This document shows, in pieces, positions 35,808-40,709 of a stretch of 64,000 nt of DNA. The notes under the pieces are model-generated. The model saw nothing but the letters and a program-made list of their open reading frames with translations, ran no database searches and had not been told where the DNA came from. The stretch is from a bacterium. Lineage in GTDB: Bacteria; Chloroflexota; Dormibacteria; Aeolococcales; Bog-877. Where the stretch lies: NCBI GenBank assembly GCA_021791415.1, contig JAJYWQ010000058.1, positions 27,656 through 91,655 on the forward strand, given 5' to 3'. Positions within the stretch are counted from its first letter, which is position 1; each line of letters starts with the position of its first letter. Position numbers and translations under genes: made by a program.

Positions 35808-36305
35808 ATGGACCGAGAGGAGCTCGAGGTGGTGGTGGAGATCCCCAGGGGGAGCCGCAACAAGTACGAAATGGACCACTCGACCCATCGCATCCGCCTG
35901 GACCGGGTGCTGCACTCCTCGGTCCACTATCCCACCGACTACGGGTACATCCCCGACACGCTGGCCGAGGACGGCGATCCCCTGGACGCACTGGTGGTGG
36001 TCGAGGATGGGACGTTCCCGGGCTGCTCGGTCCCGGCTCGGCCCATCGGGCTCCTGCACATGGCGGACGAGAACGGGAAGGACGTGAAGGTGCTCTGCGT
36101 CGCGGCCTCGGATCCCCGTTTCGATGAGATCGGCGAGTTGGGCGACCTGGCTCCCCACTGGCTGCGGGAGATCGAGATCTTCTTCGAGACCTACAAGCGC
36201 CTCGAGGACTCCAAGGAGGTGTCCGTCGGCGGCTGGGAGGGGCGCGAGGCAGCCTGGGGGGCGATCCTCGACTGCCGGCGGCGGCTGGGGGAGTCGGCGG
36301 GCTGA
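35808..36305 (+). CDS. ppa: inorganic pyrophosphatase
   Basis: 'VVVEIPRGSRNKYEMDHSTHRIRLDRVLHSSVHYPTDYGYIPDTLAEDGDPLDALVV'; SD AGGAGG. Confidence 0.97.
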   Translation: MDREELEVVVEIPRGSRNKYEMDHSTHRIRLDRVLHSSVHYPTDYGYIPDTLAEDGDPLDALVVVEDGTFPGCSVPARPIGLLHMADENGKDVKVLCVAASDPRFDEIGELGDLAPHWLREIEIFFETYKRLEDSKEVSVGGWEGREAAWGAILDCRRRLGESAG

Positions 36306-36383
36306 AGTCGGCCCCGCTGCGACTGCCTAGAATGGACTTGGTTTCCGCATTGGGTGGGCTCATGCCCGGGCAGGGGAGGTCCG

Positions 36384-37307
36384 ATGAGGCAGAAGGTTTC
36401 GGTGATCGGCGCGGGAAACGTGGGGGCCACCACGGCCCAGCGACTGGCCGAGATGGATCTCGTAGACATCGCCCTGGTGGACGTGGTGGAGGGGCTGGCC
36501 GAGGGGAAGGCCCTCGACCTTCGCGAGGCGGCGCCGGTGGTGGGCTACGACAGTTCGGTGGTGGGCTCCACCGACATGGCGATCACCGAGGGTTCGCGCG
36601 TGGTGGTGGTCACCTCCGGCCTGGCCCGCAAGCCGGGGATGAGCCGGGACGACCTGATCAGCGCCAACGCCAAGATCGTCGGCCCCGTTGTGGAGGAGGT
36701 GGTGCGGCACTCCCCCGATGCGGTGCTGGTTATGGTGACCAATCCGCTCGACGTGATGACCGAGCTGGCCATCCGAGTCAGCGGGCTGGACCGTCGCCGG
36801 GTGATCGGGATGGCCGGTGTCCTGGACACCGCGCGGTTCCGTTCCTTCCTGGCCTCCGAGCTCGCCGTTTCCGTCCGCAGCGTCGAGGCGTATGTGCTGG
36901 GCGGCCACGGAGACACCATGGTGCCGCTAAGGGGCGTGACCAGCGTGGCCGGGGTGCCGGTGGGGCGGCTGATTCCCGAGGGGCGGCTGGAGGAGATCGT
37001 TCAGCGGACCCGGGACGGGGGCGCCGAGGTGGTGAAGCTGCTGAAGACAGGCTCCGCCTACTACGCCCCCGCCGCCGCCGTCGCCCAGATGGTGGATGCC
37101 ATCCTCCGGGACCGTGGGCTGGTCCTGCCCTGCGCCATCCGCCTGGACGGGGAGTACGGCCTGAGCGGGGTGGTGATGGGGGTGCCGGTCAAACTCGGAG
37201 CCGGGGGCGTCCAGGAAGTCCTGGAGGTGGAGCTGACCCAGTCCGAGAGGGCTGAGCTGGAGCGGTCCGCGGCCGCCGTCCGGGAAGTGACGGCGGTGCT
37301 GGGCTGA
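36384..37307 (+). CDS. mdh: malate dehydrogenase (LDH-like)
   Basis: 'KVSVIGAGNVGATTAQRLAEMDLVDIALVDVVEG', 'VMVTNPLDVMTELAIRVSGLDRRRVIGMAGVLDTARFRSFLA'. Confidence 0.95.
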   Translation: MRQKVSVIGAGNVGATTAQRLAEMDLVDIALVDVVEGLAEGKALDLREAAPVVGYDSSVVGSTDMAITEGSRVVVVTSGLARKPGMSRDDLISANAKIVGPVVEEVVRHSPDAVLVMVTNPLDVMTELAIRVSGLDRRRVIGMAGVLDTARFRSFLASELAVSVRSVEAYVLGGHGDTMVPLRGVTSVAGVPVGRLIPEGRLEEIVQRTRDGGAEVVKLLKTGSAYYAPAAAVAQMVDAILRDRGLVLPCAIRLDGEYGLSGVVMGVPVKLGAGGVQEVLEVELTQSERAELERSAAAVREVTAVLG

Positions 37308-38083: not shown

Positions 38084-38093
38084 GGAGGGGAGG

Positions 38094-40709
38094 ATGGCCG
38101 CAGAGGCTGAGTACGACGTCCTGGTCCTGGGGGCCGGGGGGGCGGGGATGCGCGCGGCCATCGCCGCCGCCCAGGCGGGCTGCTCCGTCGGGGTGGTCTG
38201 CAAGTCCCTCCTGGGGAAGGCCCACACGGTGATGGCCGAGGGGGGGATCGCCGCGGCCCTGGGGAACGTGGACCCCGAGGACACCTGGCAGACGCACTTC
38301 GGCGACACCATGCGCGGCGGGGCGATGATGAACAACTGGCGGATGGTGGAGCTCTACGCCCACGAGGTGATCGACCGGGTCATCGAGCTGGAGCAGTGGG
38401 GCGGGGTCTTCGACCGCACCAAGCAGGGCAAGATCAGCCAGCGGGCCTTCGGCGCCCACTCCTGGCGCCGACTGGCGCACATCGGCGACCGGACCGGGCT
38501 GGAGCTCATCCGCACCTGCCAGGACCGGATGGTGCACCAGGAGGGGGTCACGGTCCACATGGAGACCACCATGACCCGCCTATTGAAGGACGGTGACCGG
38601 ATTGCCGGCGCCACCGGGTACCGGCGGTCGGACGGCGAATTCATCACCATCCTGGCCAAGGCGGTGGTGCTGGCCACTGGAGGGTGGGGGCGGATGTACC
38701 GCATCACCTCCAACTCCTGGGAGGGCACCGGGGACGGGGCGGCCATGGCCTACGAGGCCGGTGCCGAGCTCAAGGACATGGAGTTCGTCCAGTTCCACCC
38801 CACGGGGATGGTGTGGCCGCCGGGGGCCAGGGGGATCCTGGTCACCGAGGCGGTCCGCGGAGAGGGAGGCATCCTGCGAAACTCCCTGGGCGAGCGCTTC
38901 ATGGAGCGCTACGACCCGGTGAAGAAGGACCTCTCCTCGCGGGACGTCGTCGCCCGCTCCATCTTCAAGGAGGTCCAGGCCGGGCGCGGATCACCCCACG
39001 GGGGAGCCTTCCTGGACGTCACCCACCTCGGGTCCGAGACCATCCGCCGGCGGCTGCCGTCCATGTACGAGCAGTTCCACAGCCTCGCCGGGGTCGACAT
39101 CACCAAGGAGCCGATGGAGGTCGCCCCCACCATCCACTACACCATGGGCGGGGTCAACGTCGAGGCGGAGACGGCGGCCACCACGGTGCCGGGGCTCTAC
39201 GCCGCGGGCGAGGTGGCGGCTGGCCTTCACGGGGCCAACCGGCTCGGCGGGAACTCCCTGGGCGACATCCTGGTCTTCGGCAAGCGCGCGGGAGAGGCAG
39301 CTGCCGAATATGCCAAGGGGCTGCCTTCGTTCCCGGCCGTTGATGAGGGCCAGGTCGAGGAGGAGCGCCGGGTGCTGCTGCGCCCGCTGTCCGGCGGGGA
39401 AGGGGAGGACCCCTACCGGCTGCACCGCGAGCTGCAGGAGGCCATGCAGGCAGGCGCGGCCATCGCCCGTACCGAGGAGTCGCTGCGCGAGGCGCTGGAG
39501 ACAATCCTCGAGCTGAAGGAGAGGGCGGAGAGGATCAGGGTGCCGGGCGACCGCGCCTACAACCCGGGCTTCAGCACCGCTCGCGACGACCTCTTCATGC
39601 TCACCGTGAGCGAGGCCATCGTCCGCTCCGCCCTGGAGAGGCGGGAGAGCCGGGGGTCACAGTGGCGTCTGGACTACCCGGACCGCGACGAGGAGCTGGG
39701 GCACGTGAACCTAGTGGCCCGGGCGGGTAGCCGGGGGCACATGGAGGTGTCTCATCGCCGGCTGGATCCCATGCCGGAGAGGCTGGCGGAGCTGGCAGCC
39801 GGCCAGACCAGGGTGGCGGCGACCGCTGTGGCGGACGCCGCGGAAGCCAAGCTGCGGGCGCGCCAGAAGGGCCAACCCGCTCCCCAGCCGGAGATCTCGC
39901 CAGACGAGGAGTTGCCCAAGAAGCTGCGCATCGCCTACGAGGACGGCGAGACCGACCGGGAGGTGACCTTCCGGGTGTGGCGGGGAGACGCCTCCGGAGG
40001 TTCTCTACAGCACTACCGCGTCCCGGTGGTGGAGGGGATGGTGGTGCTGGACGGCATCCACTGGATCCAGGCCAACCTGGCGGGGGACCTGGCCTGCCGC
40101 TGGAACTGCAAGGCCGCCAAGTGCGGCTCCTGCAGTGCCGAGATCAATGGGCGTCCCTCTCTGATGTGCAAGACCAGGGTCGACGAGGTGCTGGCCCTCG
40201 CTCCGGAGGTGATCGTCCAGCCGATGCAGGTCTTCCCCAAGGTCGAGGACCTGGTGACCGACGTGAGCTGGAACTACGAGGTCAACCGCAAGATCCAGCC
40301 CTTCACCCCGGCGCCCGGCGAGATGGCGCCCTTCGACATCCAGCAGCGCGACATAGAGCGAGTGATCGAGCAGCGACGCTGCATCGAGTGCTTTCTCTGC
40401 CAGGACGTCTGCCACGTGATGCGCGAGCATGAGGGGATGGGGAGGTTCTTCGGACCCCGCTTCATGGTGCGGATGGCGTCGCTGGAGATGCATCCCAAGG
40501 ACGTGCTCAACCGCCTGCCCCAGCTGTACGGGGAGGGCGGCCTGGCCTACTGCAACATAACCAAGTGCTGCACCGAGGTCTGCCCGGAGCACATCCAGAT
40601 CACCGACAACGCCATCATCCCTCTCAAGGAGCGGGTCGCCGACCGCCACTTCGATCCGATTCGGGGAGCGCTGCGTGTCCTCCGCAGGGACACAGCTGGC
40701 GGGAGGTAA
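38094..40709 (+). CDS. succinate dehydrogenase, flavoprotein (SdhA) and iron-sulfur (SdhB) subunits fused in one ORF
   Basis: SdhA: 'DVLVLGAGGAGMRAAIAAAQAG', 'AFGAHSWRRLAHIGDRTG', 'HYTMGGV', 'LHGANRLGGNSLGDILVFG'. SdhB: 'FRVWRGD', 'CRWNCKAAKCGSCSAEINGRPSLMCKT', 'CIECFLCQDVC', 'YCNITKCCTEVCPEHI'. No stop codon between. Confidence 0.95.
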   Translation: MAAEAEYDVLVLGAGGAGMRAAIAAAQAGCSVGVVCKSLLGKAHTVMAEGGIAAALGNVDPEDTWQTHFGDTMRGGAMMNNWRMVELYAHEVIDRVIELEQWGGVFDRTKQGKISQRAFGAHSWRRLAHIGDRTGLELIRTCQDRMVHQEGVTVHMETTMTRLLKDGDRIAGATGYRRSDGEFITILAKAVVLATGGWGRMYRITSNSWEGTGDGAAMAYEAGAELKDMEFVQFHPTGMVWPPGARGILVTEAVRGEGGILRNSLGERFMERYDPVKKDLSSRDVVARSIFKEVQAGRGSPHGGAFLDVTHLGSETIRRRLPSMYEQFHSLAGVDITKEPMEVAPTIHYTMGGVNVEAETAATTVPGLYAAGEVAAGLHGANRLGGNSLGDILVFGKRAGEAAAEYAKGLPSFPAVDEGQVEEERRVLLRPLSGGEGEDPYRLHRELQEAMQAGAAIARTEESLREALETILELKERAERIRVPGDRAYNPGFSTARDDLFMLTVSEAIVRSALERRESRGSQWRLDYPDRDEELGHVNLVARAGSRGHMEVSHRRLDPMPERLAELAAGQTRVAATAVADAAEAKLRARQKGQPAPQPEISPDEELPKKLRIAYEDGETDREVTFRVWRGDASGGSLQHYRVPVVEGMVVLDGIHWIQANLAGDLACRWNCKAAKCGSCSAEINGRPSLMCKTRVDEVLALAPEVIVQPMQVFPKVEDLVTDVSWNYEVNRKIQPFTPAPGEMAPFDIQQRDIERVIEQRRCIECFLCQDVCHVMREHEGMGRFFGPRFMVRMASLEMHPKDVLNRLPQLYGEGGLAYCNITKCCTEVCPEHIQITDNAIIPLKERVADRHFDPIRGALRVLRRDTAGGR

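Follow-up and report, generated by a model that had tools for sequence, protein, structure and literature searches.

Fusions of complex II family proteins with further redox domains are known. In thiol:fumarate reductase, TfrB carries an extra C-terminal part in addition to its SdhB part. Flavocytochrome c fumarate reductase combines an SdhA-like part with a haem domain (PMC10238741). Neither of these proteins joins SdhA to SdhB, and a survey of fusions in archaea contained only fissions of SdhA, which were judged to be artefacts (PMC11237513). The best solved relative of all three proteins discussed here (SdhA, SdhB and SdhC) is Sdh1 of M. smegmatis (PDB 7d6v/7d6x), an enzyme whose SdhA and SdhB are separate chains and whose architecture is that of class F, with a membrane Rieske cluster (PMC10238741). 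Split class F sdhCAB operons also occur in the sister genus g5 (L015, L016) and in family f2, which belongs to the same order. Their SdhA and SdhB are 71-79% and 64-73% identical, respectively, to the fused protein described below, and their operon order is the same, but they encode two proteins, with the stop codon of sdhA overlapping the start of sdhB or directly adjoining it.

We analyzed a 64,000-nucleotide stretch of DNA (the window) in which the usual two-gene, two-chain composition of complex II was not found. Instead, translation of positions 38094-40709 gave one stop-free ORF of 871 aa, comprising a full SdhA (residues ~5-557) and, behind it in the same frame, a full SdhB (~618-860). 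Pfam searches of the whole ORF detected FAD_binding_2 (8-389) and Succ_DH_flav_C (444-557) in the SdhA half and Fer2_3 (626-725) and Fer4_8 (760-834) in the SdhB half. Together with the NCBIfam models, both of which scored above their cut-offs (PRK07803, 831 bits against 819; PRK12386, 362 bits against 256), they show that both subunits are entire, in agreement with a preliminary description of this DNA as a single-ORF fusion of SdhA and SdhB. The cysteines of each of the three Fe-S motifs which that description had assigned to SdhB could be located (C668/672/677/680/692, C763/766/769/773 and C820/825/826/830), and homology puts the junction (39870-39932, about residues 593-613) near the proposed interval of ~39850-39915. 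Alignment and motif positions also revealed all expected catalytic residues of the SdhA half (His44, His235, Arg288, His348 and Arg383). The flavinylation site had been misplaced, however. The covalent-FAD histidine is His44, in the motif AHTVMAEGG that aligns with SHTVSAQGG of E. coli SdhA (1nek_A), whereas the stretch GAHSWRR, previously taken for this region, is a different conserved segment that aligns with GGHTYPR of Sdh1.

Table 1. Features of the fused sdhAB locus and its surroundings (positions are those of the window)
Feature	Position	Strand	Evidence or remarks
Inorganic pyrophosphatase	35808-36305		upstream of mdh
mdh, lactate/malate dehydrogenase family	36381..37307	+	Ldh_1_N/C; stop and sdhC start share bases (TGATG)
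sdhC, class F (Sdh1-type) membrane anchor, 258 aa	37307..38083	+	7d6v_C, E=4e-41
Purine-rich Shine-Dalgarno-like spacer GGAGGGGAGG, preceding the ATG of the fused gene	38084..38093	+	sequence
SdhA part, residues 1-592 (FAD domain, His44 flavin site, His235, Arg288, His348, Arg383, C-terminal tail)	38094..39869	+	Pfam, NCBIfam, alignments with 7d6v_A and 1nek_A, motif positions
Linker, ~residues 593-613, charged and rich in Pro; place where a separate sdhA would have ended and sdhB begun	39870..39932	+	fused/split junction alignments
SdhB part, residues 614-871, with [2Fe-2S], [4Fe-4S] and [3Fe-4S] Cys motifs, including stop	39933..40709	+	Fer2_3, Fer4_8, PRK12386, 7d6v_B
OsmC-family gene			downstream of the fused gene

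In searches against PDB, the SdhA half matched 7d6v_A with 620 bits (6lum_A, the second distinct structure, reached 384) and the SdhB half matched 7d6v_B with 301 bits (73 for 1kf6_B). Foldseek, run with the AlphaFold model, also ranked 7d6v_A first, and the structural alignment gave 53% identity between Sdh1 SdhA and the fused SdhA half. For the sdhC product, 7d6v_C was the sole PDB match (E=4e-41); its residues C85, C103, H137, C188 and H225, candidate ligands of the Rieske cluster, are shared by all of 117 homologues, and the same Cys and His residues are found in SdhC of Sdh1. The best structures were thus chains A, B and C of 7d6v, confirming the likeness to mycobacterial Sdh1 noted in the preliminary description. 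Sequence places the fused protein and SdhC together in class F (M. smegmatis Sdh1-type) complex II. The gene order is mdh, sdhC and, directly downstream, fused sdhAB (Table 1), and sdhC lies upstream on the same strand in the window, as it does at 112 of the 117 loci. Assignment of the direction as succinate dehydrogenase, not fumarate reductase, rests on homology and on the adjoining mdh. No second SdhA, SdhB or NadB homologue was found in the genome of the window (90.6% complete). We estimate a probability of about 0.87 that the locus encodes a class F succinate:quinone oxidoreductase with its flavoprotein and iron-sulfur subunits as a single chain.

The distribution of fused and split genes was examined in the 41 genomes nearest to the window, including its own. 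The fused gene was present as a single stop-free frame in 14 of them, with 77-100% identity, and all 14 belong to family f1 (Ca. Dormibacterota): seven to g1, the genus of the window, four to g2, one to g3 and two to g4. Separate sdhA and sdhB were found in two g5 genomes of the same family and in all family f2 genomes that could be read. The fusion was also detected in three further loci (L021-L023), including two Ca. Dormiibacterota MAGs. Altogether, 124 loci contained both genes, with 17 fused and 107 split; the fused loci all come from family f1, and some of them represent the same genome counted twice. In 70 of the 107 split pairs the two genes overlap, by exactly 4 nt in 40 of these 70. 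One genome carried two different fused sdhAB genes (G017:C155 and G017:C57); its contamination is 7%, and these are probably two strains in one bin. In addition, a second class F sdhAB, split, was observed at the edge of a contig in a g1 genome (L143, G001:C57, 1-1192). Its sdhB is interrupted by an in-frame TAG and shares 71% identity with that of an Actinomycetes MAG (L097), and this locus is either a contaminant contig or a pseudogene.

Strict searches, which detect class F fusions only and had no positive control outside family f1, found no other such fusion in 400 genomes of the phylum of the window, and none in samples of ~190-250 genomes from Acidobacteriota, from Planctomycetota and from the cyanobacterial phylum. 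A search of Actinomycetota, with a sample in the same range, was likewise negative for class F fusions. Domain searches around SdhB covered 198 Actinomycetota genomes (among the matches listed) and 148 from the phylum to which Geoglobus belongs, the sixth phylum sampled. The long stop-free frames near SdhB that were fetched from these two groups all proved to be split, with SdhA and SdhB in different frames; as a control of the frame check, L142 was correctly called fused. In the archaeal loci L139-L141, A and B are likewise in different frames. A match in G378 spanning 5-864 has two stops inside and is therefore split, and single-piece plasmid matches from Burkholderia and Caballeronia span sdhA and sdhB that are separately annotated in the only record with annotation. 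These results bear out two earlier statements, that SdhA and SdhB are normally separate (107 split loci, and no fusion outside family f1 in the six-phylum samples) and that the fusion could serve as a lineage marker, as it occurs only in g1-g4, four genera of one Dormibacterota family, with g5 and f2 split.

All genomes are drafts, that of the window consisting of 86 contigs, and an assembly or sequencing error could in principle mask an sdhA stop. The chance of this is negligible, because the same open frame is seen in 14 independent assemblies from four genera at 77-100% identity. Moreover, linker length varies by no more than one residue across all fused genes, and dN/dS within g1 is about 0.11 in the linker, compared with 0.11 in SdhB, 0.07 in SdhA and 0.13 in the SdhA tail. 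By this measure, the linker is under purifying selection as strong as that on SdhB, and the genomic data indicate that the fusion is real, conserved and lineage-specific. A real fusion might still be partly nominal if SdhB were produced on its own as well, or even chiefly so, by initiation within the gene. In four g1 genomes codon 607 is an in-frame TTG that directly follows GAGGAG, and GTG occurs at column 624 in 7 of 14 genes. However, the spacing between this TTG and the purine run is very short, three other g1 loci (L003, L006 and L007) lack the TTG, and the alignment contains no start-type codon column near the SdhB head that is conserved across all fused genes. Separate translation of SdhB is therefore unlikely, indeed improbable in our view, and all SdhB is probably produced within the fused chain. 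It is equally improbable that the fusion is translated and then cut in the linker to give ordinary separate subunits: the linker is Pro-rich, charged and modelled less confidently, but it shows no sequence hint of a cleavage site and is not freely variable. With SdhA and SdhB encoded as one chain, a fixed A:B stoichiometry is predicted from the gene structure.

The origin of the fusion can be approached through g5, where sdhA ends with ETRVAATDLADAADARQ and the TGA stop shares bases with the start codon of sdhB (ATGA or GTGA). The C-terminal tail of g5 SdhA (ETRVAAT..LADAAD) is the tail present at the fusion junction. Fused genes retain both this tail and the SdhB head (LRIxYxDGxTDR), and what is absent is the short block between them, with the stop and the start. 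Relative to L015 the gap is 32 nt in an alignment of a poorly conserved stretch, and this length, 2 mod 3, belongs to the deletion class that brings sdhB into the sdhA frame. Thus, a single event could account for the fusion: in an ancestral sdhC-sdhA-sdhB operon with the ATGA or GTGA overlap still seen in g5, one short frame-changing deletion (~32 nt by the alignment) would have removed both codons and welded the frames. In the SdhA tree, g5 is sister to a single clade of all fused genes (92/80). The SdhB tree, in which L014 of g3 groups weakly with g5 (81/50), and the combined tree, which shows a trichotomy, leave g3, g5 and the rest unplaced. One origin was not rejected (p-AU 0.52) and is compatible with the trees. 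These two trees leave some room for another history, in which the fusion did not arise once after g5 split off, but was basal to the family and re-split in g5, or arose twice. We regard it as unlikely, though not negligible; the single clade in the SdhA tree argues against it, and the 4-nt overlap of g5 is the common arrangement of the order, which a re-split would need to recreate.

AlphaFold modelled the whole 871-aa chain (69-row alignment) as one confident fold (pLDDT 90.4, pTM 0.93), with the linker region at lower confidence (block pLDDT 74-88 over residues 571-620). The high whole-chain pTM suggests a defined A/B arrangement. The simplest mechanism would be a normal class F complex II with its catalytic pair tethered, strictly 1:1 and assembled in cis. 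The chain would fold as the usual SdhA/SdhB pair and then dock on SdhC, and electrons would pass from succinate to FAD, the three Fe-S clusters, the membrane Rieske cluster and quinone. The linker would probably be a tether only, with covalent 1:1 production replacing translational coupling.

The flavinylation factor SdhE/Sdh5 (PF03937) was not found in any of the 41 genomes (that of the window and the 40 nearest), though the flavin-attachment histidine of SdhA is kept. A link between the fusion and loss of this factor was considered and rejected, because it is missing in fused and split genomes alike.

A different arrangement of complex II parts was observed in two families of the order, where an operon without SdhA (L142, G008:C187, 5273-7951, minus strand; L148, G023:C61, 620-2559 and on) encodes a GlpA-like FAD glycerol-3-phosphate dehydrogenase, an SdhB-type iron-sulfur protein and two Sdh_cyt membrane subunits. 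The GlpA-like protein (385 aa; TIGR03377, 446 bits, under the cut-off) is 76% identical between the two families. This operon apparently pairs a complex II anchor/iron-sulfur module with a GlpA-type flavoprotein.

The preliminary description had asked whether such a fusion is already characterized. No report of an SdhA-SdhB or FrdA-FrdB fusion was found in the searchable full-text literature. The enzyme is otherwise an ordinary respiratory one, and the SdhA-SdhB gene fusion is what is apparently new. We think it fairly likely that this is the first recognized complex II in which a single obligate polypeptide forms the whole water-soluble catalytic core, from the flavin through to the final iron-sulfur cluster of SdhB, and no SdhB is produced separately. 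If so, it would be a natural test of whether A/B assembly needs two chains. The covalent core is conserved here while SdhA and SdhB are separate at all other loci examined, which implies that separate subunits are not required. The junction offers a simple one-step model for gene fusion from a 4-nt-overlapping pair. The fused gene is a rare genomic character by which four genera of a Dormibacterota family can be recognized, and it gives a natural single-chain construct for the study of flavinylation and Fe-S assembly in complex II.
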